DNA of 64,000 bases, taken from Peptococcaceae bacterium (GTDB taxonomy: Bacteria; Bacillota; Peptococcia; Peptococcales; Peptococcaceae). The notes beneath the pieces are model-generated. The model was not told the DNA's origin, searched no databases, and saw only the letters and a program-made list of their open reading frames with translations. The stretch lies in the NCBI GenBank assembly GCA_017547685.1, contig JAFYPD010000019.1, positions 1 through 64,000 of the forward strand, read 5' to 3'. A program made the position numbers and the translations under genes. Positions 4,706-13,062 of this stretch are shown in pieces. How positions within the stretch are numbered: position 1 is the stretch's first letter; each line of letters starts with the position of its first letter.

Positions 4706-4724
4706 AAAAAAGGAGAGATGGGGA

Positions 4725-5624
4725 TTGCGTTTTGAACAGCTGCGATGTTTGATTGAGATTGCAAAAACAGGAACCATTACCGGTGCGGCCCAGAATCTGT
4801 TTATGACCCAGCAGGCAGTCAGCGTCAGTATTCGGCAGCTGGAAGAAGAGATCGGCCTGCCTCTGATGGTGCGCACAAAAACCGGTGTGCAGCTGACCGA
4901 GGCCGGTGCGGAGGCATCCCGGTTTGCCTATCATCTGCTAAAAGAAAAAGATGATTTTCTTTCTAATATGAGAAGCAGCCAGAAAGAAGTACCGGAACAG
5001 AAACTGATTCAGCTGAAGGTTGCATCCAATTCACCTGTAATGAATGTGGTTCTGCCCAGTGTGTTTGTTCAAATGGATATGAAAGTGAATAAAGACCTGC
5101 TGCATGTCTCGGCATCTCTTCCAGCCGACCGGATTATTGAGCATGTGAAGCAGGGGACCCGTGATTTCGGGCTGATTACCATGCAGGAGAGCCGTCTTCT
5201 GAAAAAAATGGAGGCAGAACAGGATATTCTGCAGATGGATGTTCTGGCGCGAGATGAGATTGTATGCGTGAAAGGCCGCAACTTCTACAAATGGGAGCAG
5301 AATTATATCTCGCCGGCTGAATTTCATGCCCGGCCGATTTCACTGTATAATCTGGAGCCGATCAACGACGGCGAGACAGAGGAAAATTATATTACCTGTT
5401 CCAATGATGTGCATTTTCAGCGCAAACTGATGGATTCCAGCGGTGTAATCACCCTGATGCCCGGGCTGGCGTACCAGTATTTTTTTGCAGAAAAGAAATT
5501 TGCGTCCATGCTGATGGAGGAAGTCAACCGCCCGCTTCTGCATGCGGCCGTGTATCGGAAAAATGCCAGCCCGCAGCTGCTGGACGTGATAGCGATGATT
5601 CGAAACGAACTTCACAAAAAATAA
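4725..5624 (+). CDS. LysR-family transcriptional regulator (LysR1)
   Basis: 299 aa. It starts with TTG at 4725 behind AAGGAGAGA. The N-terminal winged HTH is clear (RFEQLRCLIEIAKTGTITGA, then QQAVSVSIRQLEEEIG), followed by a substrate-binding-like domain. It begins 19 bp after miaA and could be co-transcribed with it. The large phosphodiesterase gene PDE1 lies downstream in the same direction. Two further LysR genes (8196, 9840) and a pseudogene (13236) in this window are close paralogs; all share the N-terminal R-(F/L)-EQL-(R/Q/K)-CL. The effector is unknown. Adjacency suggests control of the phosphodiesterase genes, but this is inference. Confidence 0.93.
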   Translation: MRFEQLRCLIEIAKTGTITGAAQNLFMTQQAVSVSIRQLEEEIGLPLMVRTKTGVQLTEAGAEASRFAYHLLKEKDDFLSNMRSSQKEVPEQKLIQLKVASNSPVMNVVLPSVFVQMDMKVNKDLLHVSASLPADRIIEHVKQGTRDFGLITMQESRLLKKMEAEQDILQMDVLARDEIVCVKGRNFYKWEQNYISPAEFHARPISLYNLEPINDGETEENYITCSNDVHFQRKLMDSSGVITLMPGLAYQYFFAEKKFASMLMEEVNRPLLHAAVYRKNASPQLLDVIAMIRNELHKK

Positions 5625-5840: not shown

Positions 5841-5909
5841 ATAGACTTATAAGAAGCGGCTGCGACAGCTGCAAAACTATTATACAATCACGAAAGGGGT
5901 AATTGTATT

Positions 5910-8030
5910 ATGTTAAGAAGCAAAGGCTTATCTGAAAAAGTGATCCTGCTGGGGTTAGACGGTCTGGATCCAAAATTCTCCCGCAAAATGGTTGACGAAG
6001 GGCATATGCCGAACCTGAAAAAATTAATCGAAAAAGGTTCTGCCCGTCACGACCTGCGTCTGTTAGGGGCAGTTCCTACCATTACACCTCCAACATGGGC
6101 TACACTGGCTACCGGTGCTTACCCGATGACACACGGGATTGAAGACTTCAATATCAACCTGGAAGGTGAGTTGGGTGTTAACTTCTCCGATATCTACTCC
6201 AAATTCTGCAAAGCAGAACAGCTGTGGAATGTAACTGCAGAAGCCGGCAAAAAAACACTGGTATGGCACTGGCCGGGCGGTTCCTGGCCACCATCCTCCG
6301 ACAGCGAGAACCTGTATGTGGTAGACGGTACCTCTCCAGGTGCGCTGGGCTTTACTTATGCAATGCGTGACTGGGAAGGTATCGCAGTTGCAAGTGATAA
6401 AATCACGGAGCCTTCTTTCCAGGGCAATGCTGTTTGCACCACAGAAGGGTTTACCGGTGACCCTGCTGAACTGCTGGGCTTAAGGCCAAAACACAACAGC
6501 TACACAAAATGCCAGAACGACTTGTCTTATGTAGATGAAATCTATGCAGAATACAAAGATGGTATCGACGGTTTTAACGGTTTCCATCCGGTTAAAATGA
6601 TGGACATCCGTACCAACATCTTAATGCCTGGCGACCAGCAGATGTACAACCTGCATCACTACCCTGCAAACCTGGCGCTGAGCCCGATCACTGAGCCAAC
6701 CGGCTGGACAGCTGAAGTTCCGGAAGGGGCAAAAGAATTCACATGGATGCTGGTATACGGCAAATTCCCGCATCCTTGCCTGATTCTGAAAAACGAACAG
6801 GGCGTATACGACAGAATTGCTGTATATCTGAAAAAAGATCAGCCGCAGCCGATTGCAATCATTGAAAAAGGTGTTTACACCAAAAATGTACCGGATATCA
6901 TGCCGAATCGTCGTACCGGCGGCATGGAAAACATTGTACGTAATGTACGTATTCTGGATCTGGCGGAAGACGGTTCCTTCCTGCGCATGTGGTACTCCAA
7001 CGGCTTCTCTGCTGATGACAACAGTGTATGGTATCCAACCTGGATCTTTGATAAAATCAAAGCAAACTTTGGCCCTCCATGTGCAACTGGTCAGATTGGT
7101 GACGGTGATGATGCTCTGGTTCTGGACTGTAACCTGGAACAGTGGAGACAGGCTGCAAAATGGCAGGCAGACTCCATCAACTATATGATTCATGAAGAAG
7201 GCGTAGAAGTAGTATTCTCCCATTTCCATGGCCCTGACATGGCAGGTCACACCTACATGCGTACCCTGAAAGAACGTCCGGAATCCAGAAAAGGCGAAGA
7301 AGTATATTATAACTATGCAATCGGTACTCATGAAATGGCTGACGAATATATCGGTGAATTCCTGCCTCTGTTAGATGAAGGCTGGACCATTCTGGTATTC
7401 TCTGACCATTCCCTGATTTCTCCGAAAGAAGACTACATGCCTGAAATCGGTGACAACTACGGTATCAACATCGGTTTAATGAGAGACCTGGGCTACACTG
7501 TTCTGATGAAAGATGAAAACGGAAATGAAATTCCAGCCATCGACTGGGACAAAACCGTTGCAGTTCAGCAGCGTTCCAACTCCATTTATATCAACCTGAA
7601 AGGCCGCGACCGTTTCGGTATCGTTGACCCGGCTGAAAAATATGAACTGGAAGAAAAAATCATTACTGACCTGTACGGCGTAAGAGATCCAAAAACAGGC
7701 CGTCGTGTAATCGCTCTGGCTCTGCACAGAAAAGATGCAAATCTGCTGGGCTTAGGCGGCGATCATACCTCTGCTGATATTATTTTCTTTGTTCACGAAG
7801 ACTTTGTTCGTGACCACGGGGAATCTTTATCTACTGCTGAAGGGTATGCCGATACTTCCGTAGGGCCAATCTTCGTAGCAGCCGGTGCTGGTATTAAAGA
7901 AGGCTTCGAAATGGATATGTTCCCTCGTGAAGTAGACGTTGCGCCAACGGCTGCTGCACTGCTGGGCGTAAGAATGCCTGCACAGTGCGAAGGTGCTCCT
8001 GTTTATACAATCTTAACAGAAGAACTGTAA
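5910..8030 (+). CDS. Alkaline phosphatase superfamily phosphodiesterase/nucleotide pyrophosphatase (PDE1)
   Basis: 706 aa, ATG start at 5910 behind AAAGGGG. The protein resembles type I phosphodiesterase/nucleotide pyrophosphatases and COG3379-like phosphohydrolases. The N-terminal metal site is VILLGLDGLDP (D17). TPPTWATLATG (about 58-68) supplies the likely Thr nucleophile. FSHFHGPDMAGH (about 437-448), a SDHS motif near residue 498 and a DHGESLS near the C-terminus supply further metal ligands. A ~250-residue insertion between the two halves has no recognisable domain. There is no signal peptide, so it should be cytosolic. Codons look strongly selected (CGT, AAC, GAA, CTG), suggesting high expression. 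Substrate unknown. PDE2 at 10984 is its paralog. Confidence 0.85.
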   Translation: MLRSKGLSEKVILLGLDGLDPKFSRKMVDEGHMPNLKKLIEKGSARHDLRLLGAVPTITPPTWATLATGAYPMTHGIEDFNINLEGELGVNFSDIYSKFCKAEQLWNVTAEAGKKTLVWHWPGGSWPPSSDSENLYVVDGTSPGALGFTYAMRDWEGIAVASDKITEPSFQGNAVCTTEGFTGDPAELLGLRPKHNSYTKCQNDLSYVDEIYAEYKDGIDGFNGFHPVKMMDIRTNILMPGDQQMYNLHHYPANLALSPITEPTGWTAEVPEGAKEFTWMLVYGKFPHPCLILKNEQGVYDRIAVYLKKDQPQPIAIIEKGVYTKNVPDIMPNRRTGGMENIVRNVRILDLAEDGSFLRMWYSNGFSADDNSVWYPTWIFDKIKANFGPPCATGQIGDGDDALVLDCNLEQWRQAAKWQADSINYMIHEEGVEVVFSHFHGPDMAGHTYMRTLKERPESRKGEEVYYNYAIGTHEMADEYIGEFLPLLDEGWTILVFSDHSLISPKEDYMPEIGDNYGINIGLMRDLGYTVLMKDENGNEIPAIDWDKTVAVQQRSNSIYINLKGRDRFGIVDPAEKYELEEKIITDLYGVRDPKTGRRVIALALHRKDANLLGLGGDHTSADIIFFVHEDFVRDHGESLSTAEGYADTSVGPIFVAAGAGIKEGFEMDMFPREVDVAPTAAALLGVRMPAQCEGAPVYTILTEEL

Positions 8031-8195: not shown

Positions 8196-9107
8196 ATGCG
8201 TTTTGAACAGTTACAATGTCTGCGGGAAATTGCCCGGACAGGATCCATTACTGCAGCAGCAGAACAATTATATATTTCACAGCAGGCGGTCAGCAAAAGC
8301 ATCAAGCAGCTGGAAGAAGAAGTGGGCGCGCCGCTGATTATACGGACCAAAACAGGTGTTGTACTGACCGAACTGGGCGCAGAAGCAAACATTATGGCAG
8401 AACATATTTTAAACGCGAAAGATTACTTTATGCATGGAATGCAAAAAGGATCTGATGTATATTTAGAACATAAAAATATTTCGTACGGAATCTGTTCTAA
8501 TTCTTCTTATTTAACAACGCTCTCACCGGCAGCCTGTGCACAGCTCAATTATAAAGTACAGAGAATCAGTCAGGTGGAGGCGGCAGATGAAGTAATTGCC
8601 CGCCTCCAGGATGGAACGGATCATCTTGGTCTGTTGACAGTTTCGGAGAAAGAGTGGGACTGTAAGCTGCAGGATAACCGGATGCTGCATGATATTTCGT
8701 ATGAACTTCTGGAACAGGATCGTCTGGTTTGCGTGAAGGGAAAACGGTATTACAGCTGGGAGCAGAATCATATTTCGTGGACAGAATTCTGCATTCGTCA
8801 TAAGGCGTTTTATAATTTCCGGACAGCAAGAGGAATGGAAGAGGAAGATAATTTTATCTCTGTACCGCAGGAACTTGGCCTGTTTCGTAATCTGATGGAG
8901 TATAACGGTATTCTGGCTTTGATGCCGGAACTGGTTTATCGCCGCTTTTTTTCCGATAAACGGTTCATGTCTGTATTGATTGAAGAAGTGCCTGTTGTGC
9001 AGGAGATTTATCAGCCGCTTCTGCATCTGGTACTTTGCAGAAAACGGGAGCATGAGCAGATGTGCCGGCTGATGGCTATGATGCGCCGGGAAGTGCATAA
9101 GCGATAA
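8196..9107 (+). CDS. LysR-family transcriptional regulator (LysR2)
   Basis: 303 aa, ATG at 8196 with GGAAAGAGGAAG upstream. It has an N-terminal winged HTH (RFEQLQCLREIARTGSITAA, QQAVSKSIKQLEEEVG) and a C-terminal effector-binding domain. It is clearly a paralog of LysR1: both contain TKTGV-LTE-GAEA after the HTH and a shared core around D-GLLTVSEKE and the WEQN-IS motif. It has its own promoter and lies between PDE1 and the candidate sRNA. No phosphodiesterase gene follows it directly, unlike LysR1 and LysR3. Effector unknown. Confidence 0.93.
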   Translation: MRFEQLQCLREIARTGSITAAAEQLYISQQAVSKSIKQLEEEVGAPLIIRTKTGVVLTELGAEANIMAEHILNAKDYFMHGMQKGSDVYLEHKNISYGICSNSSYLTTLSPAACAQLNYKVQRISQVEAADEVIARLQDGTDHLGLLTVSEKEWDCKLQDNRMLHDISYELLEQDRLVCVKGKRYYSWEQNHISWTEFCIRHKAFYNFRTARGMEEEDNFISVPQELGLFRNLMEYNGILALMPELVYRRFFSDKRFMSVLIEEVPVVQEIYQPLLHLVLCRKREHEQMCRLMAMMRREVHKR

Positions 9108-9197: not shown

Positions 9198-9227
9198 TTG
9201 TTAAAAGACGGGGATACAGGCTATAAT
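9198..9227 (+). promoter_or_regulatory. Promoter of the candidate sRNA
   Basis: TTGTTA (9198-9203), an 18-bp spacer and a perfect TATAAT (9222-9227) lie 90 bp downstream of LysR2. No coding region follows before a strong terminator at 9283. Confidence 0.6.
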
Positions 9228-9233
9228 AATAGC

Positions 9234-9324
9234 GTATCCGTAAAAGAATCCCCATTTCTTTTTATGAATACAATTACCCTAAACAGGAAAGCCGCCTTTC
9301 GCACGGGCGGCTTTCCTGTTTTTG
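9234..9324 (+). ncRNA. Candidate small RNA complementary to PDE1 and PDE2 leaders
   Basis: A ~90-nt unit bounded by a sigma-70-like promoter and an intrinsic terminator, with no ORF. Bases 9267-9279 (AATACAATTACCC) are the exact reverse complement of PDE1 bases 5897-5909, which run from the Shine-Dalgarno to the base before the start codon. Pairing can extend, with a bulge and two mismatches, into PDE1 codons 1-5. The same arm pairs in blocks of about 9, 8 and 4 bp, then a broken block, with the PDE2 leader 10945-10981, reaching its Shine-Dalgarno. This suggests translational control in trans of both paralogs. It remains a prediction: it could instead be an inverted relic of a PDE leader. Confidence 0.45.
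9283..9324 (+). terminator. Strong intrinsic terminator (end of candidate sRNA)
   Basis: Perfect 14-bp stem ACAGGAAAGCCGCC/GGCGGCTTTCCTGT followed by TTTTTG. It would also stop readthrough from LysR2. Confidence 0.9.
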
Positions 9325-9340
9325 TTTATTTTTATAATGA

Positions 9341-9396: not shown

Positions 9397-9558
9397 TTAT
9401 AAAATAACCAGAATTACAAACAGAGCAATTGCAGCCACCGTAATACCGATTTTAATATATTGGGATTTTTTTGTCTGTGTTGGTTCTGCAGTGTCATAAC
9501 CAGGTTTTAAATCGGTGGATAAGATAAAGTTGTTGTCGTTATGATTATCATTTGCCAT
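9397..9558 (-). CDS. Small single-pass membrane protein
   Basis: 53 aa. The ATG at 9558 (minus strand) is preceded by an excellent AAGGAGG; this start is preferred over longer in-frame readings because of that site. The N-terminal ~33 residues are polar and rich in Asn and Asp (MANDNHNDNN). They are followed by a Lys-rich stretch and one C-terminal hydrophobic helix (about residues 34-53, IKIGITVAAIALFVILVIL), so it looks like a tail-anchored small protein. A terminator follows at once. It is the only minus-strand gene in the LysR/PDE region. I do not recognise a family. Confidence 0.7.
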   Translation of the reverse strand: MANDNHNDNNFILSTDLKPGYDTAEPTQTKKSQYIKIGITVAAIALFVILVIL

Positions 9559-9809: not shown

Positions 9810-9839
9810 AAGCGAAATGAATAGAAATGGGGAATTGGA

Positions 9840-10745
9840 ATGCGGCTGGAACAATTGCGCTGTCTGACCGAAGTGGCAAAGAATCGCTCCATATCAAAGG
9901 TGGCACAGCAGCTTTATATGACACAGCAGGCGGTCAGCCTGAGTATCAGGCAGCTGGAAAAAGAGCTTGACTGCACTCTGCTGATTCGCAACAGCAAAGG
10001 TGTAACGCTCACGGAAGCAGGAAAAGCAACGGTAGCATTTGCGGAACAGGTACTGGAAGAAAAAGAAAACTTAAAAAGTGTACTGGATCAGCTGGAAGAG
10101 CGGGAGTCTGATGAAGAGGAACGGCATATTCACATCTGTTCTATTTCCACTGTAATCAATCATGTTCTGCCTAAAATCATTGCACATGTGCATAAAAAGA
10201 ATGTCACAGTGAAACTGGATATGGTTGATGACCTGGAGACGGTGATTCAGAAAATTAAAAATCAAGAGAGTGACATTGGCCTGATTACATTTAACGAACA
10301 GGAGCTTCTGCGGATTATGGAAAATTTCCAGGGAGAAATTGTGCTGGATGTGCTGGCCCGCGATAAAATGATTGCCGTGTTTAACCGGAAACATTATGAC
10401 GGTGAAACGGACTCCATTCCGATGGAGGCATGCTTTAATACCGCACAGGTGCGTACACTGTATAATATCACGCCGGTTGAAAATATGCGGCAGGGGGCAC
10501 AGGCTATGGCTGCTATCTGTTCCAGCGATGCGGATTTTCACCGGAATATGCTGAAATATGCCGATGCAATGGTTCTGATGGCAGGGTTTTCTTATCAGTA
10601 TTTTTTTTCGTCGAAAAACTTTGTGGCGCTGCCTGTGGAGGGGCTGGATGTGCCGATGGTGCATGCAGCCATTTATCACAAAAATGCTGAAAACTGGACG
10701 GAAGAATTAATCCGGATGATTCGTCAGGAAATACGTGTAAAATAA
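9840..10745 (+). CDS. LysR-family transcriptional regulator (LysR3)
   Basis: 301 aa, ATG at 9840 behind GGGGAATTGGA. The HTH is intact (RLEQLRCLTEVAKNRSISKV, QQAVSLSIRQLEKELD) and is followed by a substrate-binding domain. It is a paralog of LysR1 and LysR2, with the shared motif D-IGLITF-EQELL. Its terminator separates it from PDE2, which follows in the same orientation, repeating the LysR1-PDE1 order. It probably regulates PDE2 or itself; the effector is unknown. Confidence 0.93.
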   Translation: MRLEQLRCLTEVAKNRSISKVAQQLYMTQQAVSLSIRQLEKELDCTLLIRNSKGVTLTEAGKATVAFAEQVLEEKENLKSVLDQLEERESDEEERHIHICSISTVINHVLPKIIAHVHKKNVTVKLDMVDDLETVIQKIKNQESDIGLITFNEQELLRIMENFQGEIVLDVLARDKMIAVFNRKHYDGETDSIPMEACFNTAQVRTLYNITPVENMRQGAQAMAAICSSDADFHRNMLKYADAMVLMAGFSYQYFFSSKNFVALPVEGLDVPMVHAAIYHKNAENWTEELIRMIRQEIRVK

Positions 10746-10898: not shown

Positions 10899-10983
10899 AA
10901 AATTGACAAATATATTGGCGAAAGTTTCTTCCAATCTATCGCCAAGGGTAATTACTTCTCATAAAAAAGAAAGGATGATTCAT

Positions 10984-13062
10984 TTGTTAAGAAGCAAAGG
11001 TTTAACAGACAAGCTGATTGTTCTCGGGATTGACGGGATGGACCCTCGATTCTCCAGAGCAATGGTGGATGAAGGGAAAATGCCAAATCTGAAAAAGCTG
11101 ATTGATATGGGCGCAGCCCGCACTGACCTGATGCTGCTGGGCGGTATGCCAACCATTACCCCTCCTATGTGGGCAACTCTAGCCACCGGATGCTATCCAA
11201 TGACACACAGCATAGTGGATTATGCCATTCCGATTCCAGGCGAACCGGATATGCGTATGGAAGCGTTCCTGTCTCCATTCTGCAAAGCAGAACAGCTGTG
11301 GAATGTAACTGCAGAAGCCGGCAAAAAAACACTGGTATTCCACTGGCCGGGCGGGGCATGGCCTCCAAGTTCCGACAGCGAAAACCTGTATGTGGTAGAC
11401 GGTACTTCTCCGGGCGCTATGGGGAACACCACCCACAAACGGGATGACGAACGTGTTATCATCGCGACTGCAAAATGCAAACATGGCGGCTGTGTGCCTT
11501 ACGGTGCAACAGACAGCCATGTGGATTGCGATATTACCGAAGTTCCAAGACCGGAACTGCATTTTGCAAGGGGAGATATGAACGACCCGCGTTTACAGGA
11601 ATATTATGATAAGTATTTTATTGAAGGCGGCACTGTATTCCAGGATTATTATCCTTCTAAATCCAGCATTCGCAACGGTGTTTTCTGGGATGACATGAAT
11701 ATGTTCCACCTGGCTGACTGGCCAACCTTCCTGTCTCTGTCGCCAATCAGCGAACCGGAAGGCTGGGCGGATGCACCAGCTGATGCGAAAGAATTCACCA
11801 TCTACTACGGATGGGGCAAAACCACCCGTCCTGCACTGATTCTGAAAAACGATGGCAGATATAATCAGGTAGCTATCTATGCAACCAAAGAAGCGACAGA
11901 ACCATTATGTGTTCTGGACGAAGATGTTTACACCCCGAACTGCCCGGACACCATCGAAAAAAATGGTACTGTCTGCAACATTGTTCGAAACATCCGTCTG
12001 CTGGAAATCAAAGAGGACGGTTCCTATGTGCGCATGTGGGCAAGCAATGCCAGCGATGTGGATAACAGCGACTGCTGGTACCCAAGATGGACCTTCGACA
12101 AAATCAAAGCAGCCTGCGGCCCTCCAAGCGCATCCTCCATGTCTGCATGTCAGGACTATGATATGATTATCAAATGCTCCGGCGAACAGTGGAATCAGTG
12201 TGCACAGTGGCAGGCAGATGCCATGATTTACATGATGGAAAACGAAGGCGTAGAAGTCGTATTCAGCCATTTCCACGGTCCGGACTTATCTGGTCATGCC
12301 TACATGAAATATCTGAAGAACCGCGACACTTCCAAATATGATGAAAGTGTGATTCGGGAATGGCATGCCAACACTTACAGATGGACTGATGATTACATCG
12401 GCCGTTTTATCCCGTATATTGAAAAAGGATGGACTGTTCTGTTAGTATCTGACCATGCGCTGATCTGTCCGGAAGCAGAACCAAACTGCATTTGCGATAA
12501 CAGTGGCGTGAATGTTGGCGTTATGAAAGAACTGGGCTTCACTGTTCTGAAAAAAGACGAAAATGGTAACGAACTGCAGGAAATTGACTGGAGCAAAACT
12601 GTTGCGGTACAGAGTGCAACCAACACCATTCATCTGAATCTGAAAGGCCGCGACCGTTACGGTATTGTAGATCCTGCAGATAAATATGAAGTGGAAGAAC
12701 AGATTATCACAGCGCTGTATGGCTATAAAGATAAGAAAACAGGAAAACGCATTGTTGCTCTGGCTCTGCACGAGAAAGATGCGGTTCTGTTAGGTATGGG
12801 CGGCGGCGATATCATCATGATGATTCATGAAGATTACAACTTCGACCACGGTGAATCCTTATCCACTGCCTGCGGGCACAATGATACCTCTGTATCTCCA
12901 ATCTTTGTGGCAGCGGGTCCTGGTGTAAAAGCGGGCCATACCATCAAAGGTTATGTGCGTGAAGTAGATGTGGCTCCGACTGCAGCTGTATTGCTGGGTG
13001 TGGATATTCCGAAAGACTGTGAAGGCGCACCGGCTTATCAGATTTTTACAGAAAAAATGTAA
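10984..13062 (+). CDS. Alkaline phosphatase superfamily phosphodiesterase/nucleotide pyrophosphatase (PDE2)
   Basis: 692 aa. I choose the TTG at 10984: it is preceded by AAAGGATG, and the protein then begins MLRSKGL exactly like PDE1. An upstream in-frame ATG at 10903 would add 27 residues without homology. The catalytic landmarks match PDE1: LIVLGIDGMDP, TPPMWATLATG, FSHFHGPDLSGH, SDHA and DHGESLS. It differs in the central region (about residues 150-260), which is Cys-rich (CKHGGC, CDITE). No signal peptide. Codon choice again suggests high expression. A 62-nt stretch (11277-11338) is identical to PDE1. Substrate unknown. Confidence 0.85.
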   Translation: MLRSKGLTDKLIVLGIDGMDPRFSRAMVDEGKMPNLKKLIDMGAARTDLMLLGGMPTITPPMWATLATGCYPMTHSIVDYAIPIPGEPDMRMEAFLSPFCKAEQLWNVTAEAGKKTLVFHWPGGAWPPSSDSENLYVVDGTSPGAMGNTTHKRDDERVIIATAKCKHGGCVPYGATDSHVDCDITEVPRPELHFARGDMNDPRLQEYYDKYFIEGGTVFQDYYPSKSSIRNGVFWDDMNMFHLADWPTFLSLSPISEPEGWADAPADAKEFTIYYGWGKTTRPALILKNDGRYNQVAIYATKEATEPLCVLDEDVYTPNCPDTIEKNGTVCNIVRNIRLLEIKEDGSYVRMWASNASDVDNSDCWYPRWTFDKIKAACGPPSASSMSACQDYDMIIKCSGEQWNQCAQWQADAMIYMMENEGVEVVFSHFHGPDLSGHAYMKYLKNRDTSKYDESVIREWHANTYRWTDDYIGRFIPYIEKGWTVLLVSDHALICPEAEPNCICDNSGVNVGVMKELGFTVLKKDENGNELQEIDWSKTVAVQSATNTIHLNLKGRDRYGIVDPADKYEVEEQIITALYGYKDKKTGKRIVALALHEKDAVLLGMGGGDIIMMIHEDYNFDHGESLSTACGHNDTSVSPIFVAAGPGVKAGHTIKGYVREVDVAPTAAVLLGVDIPKDCEGAPAYQIFTEKM

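Follow-up and report, generated by a model that had tools for sequence, protein, structure and literature searches.

What is the short stretch without an open reading frame that lies within an array of LysR regulator and phosphodiesterase (PDE) genes in an uncultured Peptococcaceae bacterium? The window, that is, the whole stretch of 64,000 nt that was analysed, belongs to a genome of 2.37 Mb in 108 contigs, and the close named relatives of this genome are Peptococcaceae MAGs, several of them of ruminant-gut origin. The order of the array is LysR1, PDE1, LysR2, the unit considered here, a small minus-strand ORF, LysR3 and PDE2, with families assigned by Pfam:

4725-5624: LysR1, assigned by Pfam family
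5910-8030, plus strand: PDE1, type I phosphodiesterase family protein (Pfam PF01663)
8196-9107, plus strand: LysR2, the gene 5' of the unit (LysR HTH by Pfam)
about 9558-9400, minus strand: small ORF, about 52 aa, hydrophobic at its C-terminal end and equipped with its own promoter-like site and terminator
9840-10745: LysR3, assigned by Pfam family
10984-13062, plus strand: PDE2, type I phosphodiesterase family protein with a TTG start (Pfam PF01663)

The small minus-strand ORF (9400-9558) had no match in Pfam or NCBIfam, and the NCBIfam matches of the PDE paralogs, to phosphonoacetate hydrolase and alkaline phosphatase PafA, were all below threshold. Type I phosphodiesterase paralogs form a large family that is often found beside LysR genes and transporters, both in this genome (G000) and in its congeners; 16 PDE-like genes were present among the 1390 ranked genes of G000 and many more in the congener G004.

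The initial annotation had placed here a promoter-terminator unit of about 90 nt lacking an ORF, and such a unit was indeed found at 9234-9325. Its parts are:

9198-9227, plus strand: sigma-70-type promoter-like site, TTGTTA (9198-9203), 18 nt, TATAAT (9222-9227), scoring 10/12 in a consensus scan
9234-9271, plus strand: predicted 5' hairpin of the RNA (by folding), with UCCCC in the loop and holding the CU-rich block AAUCCCCAUUUCUUUUUAUG
9267-9279, plus strand: exact 13-nt antisense block AATACAATTACCC (sequence, exact scan and look-elsewhere control)
9281-9325, plus strand: intrinsic terminator with a 17-pair stem, the loop TTCGCAC and a T-rich tail (called at 9281-9321)

The promoter-like site is a consensus match (10/12) of a kind that is ordinary for an AT-rich stretch, and transcription of the unit would likely start at about 9231-9235. 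The terminator stem is the longest found in the 8-kb stretch scanned. A terminator scan identified no second terminator in the 174 nt between the LysR2 stop codon (9107) and 9281, and the unit may be the 3' untranslated region (3'UTR) of LysR2. Folding of the RNA predicted from 9234 gave the UCCCC-loop hairpin, an unpaired AAUUACCC stretch and the 17-pair terminator stem, so that motifs of the UCCC type are present both as UCCCC in the 5' hairpin loop and as ACCC in the unpaired stretch. This anatomy is written in the DNA itself; that the unit is transcribed is what we infer from it. An inverted repeat, GGATAC-N16-GTATCC, at 9212-9239 of the window spans the -10 element and is a possible operator.

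Four translation starts within the array were predicted as targets of this RNA, and they are given here with their ranks among 1390 predicted genes:

5897-5909, plus strand: predicted target site in the PDE1 leader, abutting the start codon; exact 13-nt complement; rank 23 by RNAduplex and 32 by dimer partition function
10945-10981, plus strand: predicted two-block target in the PDE2 leader, running through the Shine-Dalgarno (SD) sequence; 29 pairs at -39 to -3 in cofold; rank 12 by RNAduplex and 2 by partition function
4710-4725, plus strand: predicted target in the LysR1 start region; 17 contiguous pairs, with G-U, at -15 to +1; rank 15 by RNAduplex and 3 by partition function
9816-9845, plus strand: weaker predicted target in the LysR3 start region, AGAAATGGGGA, 11 nt exact; rank 19 by RNAduplex and 85 by partition function

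The exact 13-nt antisense relation of 9267-9279 to the PDE1 leader, already noticed in the initial annotation, was confirmed in the sequence and by an exact scan. Its supposed extension into codons 1-5 appeared in RNAduplex and not in cofold, which holds the pairing to 14 pairs at -14 to -1, as the RNA there keeps its 5' hairpin closed. Cofold predicted PDE1 to be bound without the opening of this hairpin; the long duplexes with PDE2 and with the transporters described below need it open. The pairing in several blocks with the PDE2 leader through its SD sequence was reproduced as well, all 29 pairs being intermolecular. RNAduplex energies of the arm were -26.4 kcal/mol with the PDE1 leader and -27.9 kcal/mol with the PDE2 leader, compared with means of -14.5 and -12.8 for 3000 dinucleotide shuffles. 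A single shuffle reached the PDE1 energy, none the PDE2 energy and none both, which agrees with the earlier claim that a chance match to both leaders is unlikely. For a look-elsewhere control, 496 terminator-linked arms of 49 nt from the own-genome sequence sampled were compared with all translation starts at up to 6 kb, giving 4181 arm/start pairs. Among these, the match of the unit to PDE1 was the single longest exact one (13 nt), and its 11-nt match to LysR3 shared second place with one unrelated pair. Within the own-genome sequence scanned, ACAATTACCC occurs only in the unit, antisense to PDE1, in the 3'UTR of one other PDE gene and at two further places.

Both PDE leaders contain predicted structures of their own. 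The PDE1 leader folds at 5882-5908 as an ATACAAT...ATTGTAT hairpin with the SD sequence in its loop; the PDE1 orthologs of G007 and G003 have other predicted stems with the SD sequence in the loop, and in other orthologs this is not clearly so. In the PDE2 leader a hairpin is located at window positions 10918-10944, just 5' of the GGGTAATT block, and in the G005 ortholog the equivalent place also holds a hairpin, with another sequence.

The ranking from which these positions come covered 1390 predicted genes in 1.49 Mb (63% of the genome), with simple gene-start calls and energies that ignore proteins. By RNAduplex, the first and second ranks among the 1390 genes were taken by two transporters located near other PDE genes, on contigs C4 and C85. 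When a partition function including the cost of unfolding was used, PDE2 ranked 2, LysR1 3 and the same two transporters 5 and 6. Of the two PDE genes, for which the initial annotation had suggested a genome-wide target ranking, PDE2 stood at 12 and 2 and PDE1 only at 23 and 32. PDE, LysR and transporter homologs, hereafter the network, comprise 55 genes; with this grouping, which was drawn up once the first ranking was known, four of the top six of the 1390 genes by partition function are network members (hypergeometric 3e-5). Seven network genes were present in the RNAduplex top 25, where 57 shuffles gave 1.3 on average and never more than 4; in the top 10 there were two, a number matched by 7 of the 57 shuffles, and the excess is not clear at this depth. 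By partition function, five network genes fell under the 1% quantile of the other genes, where 17 shuffles gave 0-2, and eight under the 5% quantile, a count equalled by one of the 17. In silico, complementarity of the unit to the SD regions of several trans-encoded mRNAs exceeds chance.

Within the 5' hairpin, it is the CU-rich block AAUCCCCAUUUCUUUUUAUG that complements SD regions of network genes, and CCCCAUUU in the arm complements an SD variant that is rare, AAATGGGG. This variant is found at no more than 25 nt from five starts, four of them of network genes, and GGGTAATT at no more than 60 nt from four starts, three of them of network genes; the complements of both words are present in the arm in the correct order. 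As these words were counted after the pairing had been seen, the p-values of the counts are descriptive. GGGG alone near starts showed no enrichment in the network. The two target transporters belong to different families, one being CitMHS-like (just below the Pfam cut-off) and the other MFS, which is not what a single copied leader would predict.

The proposal of a trans-acting RNA that represses or balances the two PDE paralogs stands in one part, since trans antisense at the PDE starts is borne out by pairing above chance, and looks too narrow in the other, since LysR1 and two transporters outrank PDE1. Predicted targets that span the PDE/LysR/transporter network argue against a device for balancing two paralogs alone. 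The best reading of these data is a candidate sRNA that is young, CU-rich, SD-blocking and trans-acting. We give about even credence to its fuller form, in which a trans-acting RNA of about 90 nt would pair with SD regions of the network and jointly lower its expression. The complementarity is a fact of the sequence; binding, and the direction of its effect, are inferred. A cis-antisense RNA was discarded, as the unit overlaps no target gene.

A second copy of part of the unit exists in the same genome, on contig C85:

L062 (G000:C85) 6106-6060, minus strand: seed ATACAATTACCCTAA plus terminator in the 3'UTR of a PDE paralog, beginning 22 nt past the PDE stop codon

Its seed is identical to that of the unit at 15 of 15 positions and the TTCGCAC terminator loop is shared. 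The terminator stem has diverged in sequence yet is still paired, and there is no more than a loose similarity in the upstream arm. This has the look of a conserved pairing block, which two copies cannot prove, and the C85 element may be a relative of the unit RNA that derives from a 3'UTR. Taken as an RNA, it ranked PDE1 41, PDE2 31 and the C4 transporter 27 of 1390 by partition function, a weaker picture than that of the unit.

Outside its own genome the unit was not found. Beyond the own genome, a DNA-similarity search in 60 relatives gave nothing but short matches of a length expected by chance, and none of the seven other genus genomes, several of which are incomplete (G003 only 68%), has the unit. 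Searches of eight genus genomes for the 15-mer and for the CU-rich block retrieved the C85 copy alone in the own genome and no congener match in an sRNA-like context. Likewise, LysR2 has no close homolog among the other genus genomes. The small-ORF neighbour has a 78% identical stretch of 230 bp in G005 (L059 7886-8115), near another PDE, and there a different reading frame occupies the place where synteny would put the unit. The pairing energy with the RNA was -13.9 kcal/mol for the own PDE2 leader versus -3.4 for that of G005, -6.6 for the own LysR3 leader versus -1.9 for its ortholog, and -8.4 for the own PDE1 leader versus -4.7 to -6.1 for its orthologs. Worse pairing of the ortholog leaders in these three cases is what would be expected if RNA and leaders had co-evolved. 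The best pairing of all, -24.7 kcal/mol, was obtained with the leader of a transporter in G003, which beats every gene of the own genome, and no unit was found in G003. Direct comparison of this leader with the complement of the arm showed identities of 8 + 16 nt. The gene order in G003 (L074, G003:C46) is PDE, PDE1 and CitMHS-like transporter, and in G007, too, the transporter comes after PDE1. In the own genome, the PDE and CitMHS-like transporter of the G003 order are adjacent on C4 (L066, 3989-7859) and PDE1 is in the window. As PDE1 adjoins the transporter in relatives and not in the own genome, PDE1 or its neighbours have been rearranged.

The match to the G003 transporter leader and these differences in gene order make an inverted copy of a transporter leader a credible origin of the arm. 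In its non-functional form, this explanation takes the arm for a transporter or PDE leader copied in inverted orientation. Its minus strand, GGGTAATT...ATAAAAAGAAATGGGG, resembles the leader that the CitMHS-like transporter downstream of PDE1 has in relatives, and its complementarity to other genes would follow from leader words shared by these genes. None of 1000 dinucleotide shuffles scored as high as the 8 + 16 nt identity, and the region is rearranged, with an adjacency of PDE1 and transporter that is seen in relatives and not in the own genome. However, the best blocks of the arm fit different genes (13 nt of PDE1, 11 nt of LysR3, 17 contiguous pairs with LysR1 and the PDE2 blocks), the leaders of PDE1, PDE2 and LysR3 fit better than those of their orthologs, and a strong terminator has been kept right after the seed, as seed and terminator have been in the second copy. 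Moreover, such an origin is compatible with function, since a promoter in front of an inverted leader yields an antisense RNA. The minus strand is without coding homology past the leader-like stretch, and for the same reason a decayed gene on that strand was rejected. A decayed inverted leader, named in the initial annotation as the alternative that would undo its reading, is thus weakened, yet the G003 leader still surpasses all own-genome matches; we regard a non-functional copy as rather unlikely.

Less probable still is that the stretch is a plain LysR2 3'UTR with its terminator and without trans action, a C/U-rich sequence meeting purine-rich SD sequences. CU-rich sequence does pair with many SD sequences, the C85 copy sits in a 3'UTR, and no further terminator was found from the LysR2 stop to 9281. 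Against this, neither dinucleotide-matched shuffles nor the 495 other terminator-linked arms gave such matches, and the network is enriched in AAATGGGG and not in GGGG alone. It might also be that the shared words ATACAATT, GGGTAATT and GAAATGGGG are DNA sites bound by the array's LysR regulators, with RNA pairing as a by-product, which we consider very improbable. These words recur around the array, and there are dyads both in the PDE1 leader (ATACAAT...ATTGTAT) and overlapping the -10 of the unit (GGATAC-N16-GTATCC). The matches, however, lie at and 3' of SD sequences, within predicted transcripts, where LysR operators are unusual, and the CCCCATTTC block aims at the SD sequence itself.

Among described systems, the closest parallel to the candidate trans-acting RNA is with LhrC sRNAs of Listeria, in which a stem-loop carries a CU-rich UCCC motif, a further C-rich stretch lies single-stranded ahead of the terminator and pairing is with the SD region; their duplex needs the first stem-loop to be opened, and the terminator loop carries a third motif (PMC4132741). 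The class of sRNAs with UCCC motifs includes RsaE, SprD, RNAIII and FsrA (PMC4132741). The unit resembles LhrC in having a loop motif, a single-stranded motif and a terminator in equal order, and in its predicted SD pairing and stem-loop opening, but lacks a third motif in the terminator loop. Its RNA would work like the UCCC-motif sRNAs of low-GC Gram-positives, from which it differs in that the whole unit is single-copy in one species and that its predicted targets belong largely to one gene system. In Staphylococcus aureus, a UCCCC motif in the icaR 3'UTR pairs with the SD sequence of its own 5'UTR (PMC3868564). The unit likewise has a UCCCC motif in a possible 3'UTR and predicted pairing with SD sequences. 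Self-pairing of the icaR type was discarded, as the LysR2 leader ranks 571 of 1390 and the own PDE leader of the C85 element 304 (partition function). A described Rfam sRNA family was not recognised either: Rfam gave no match at threshold in the window, the best one below it being NrrF RNA (RF01416) at 9204-9321, with 33.8 bits versus a gathering score of 60, a weak match that is probably driven by the terminator hairpin.

According to the mechanism proposed, the RNA would arise either by transcription from its own promoter or by release from the LysR2 3'UTR. Its CU-rich block would cover the SD regions of PDE2, LysR1 and the CitMHS-like and MFS transporters, aided by AAUUACCC binding further upstream, and the 5' hairpin would open for the long PDE2 and transporter duplexes. 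The 13-nt block would cover the PDE1 leader just before the start codon. With ribosome entry blocked, the network genes would be repressed together.

As to how such an RNA could have arisen, a tentative scenario, which we hold to be possible rather than probable, is that of a very young sRNA restricted to one species. A leader of the own gene system would have been inverted between a promoter and a terminator and would now pair with leaders of enzyme, regulator and unrelated transporter genes that share AAATGGGG, the regulon being near its birth. No usable published account of bacterial sRNAs arising by inverted duplication was found. Should the candidate prove real, a single RNA would be coordinating a large and expanded system of phosphodiesterase, LysR and transporter genes in a gut bacterium that is uncultured, and a species-restricted sRNA of which the likely source leader and the targets are both visible would offer a direct test of how sRNA regulons begin.
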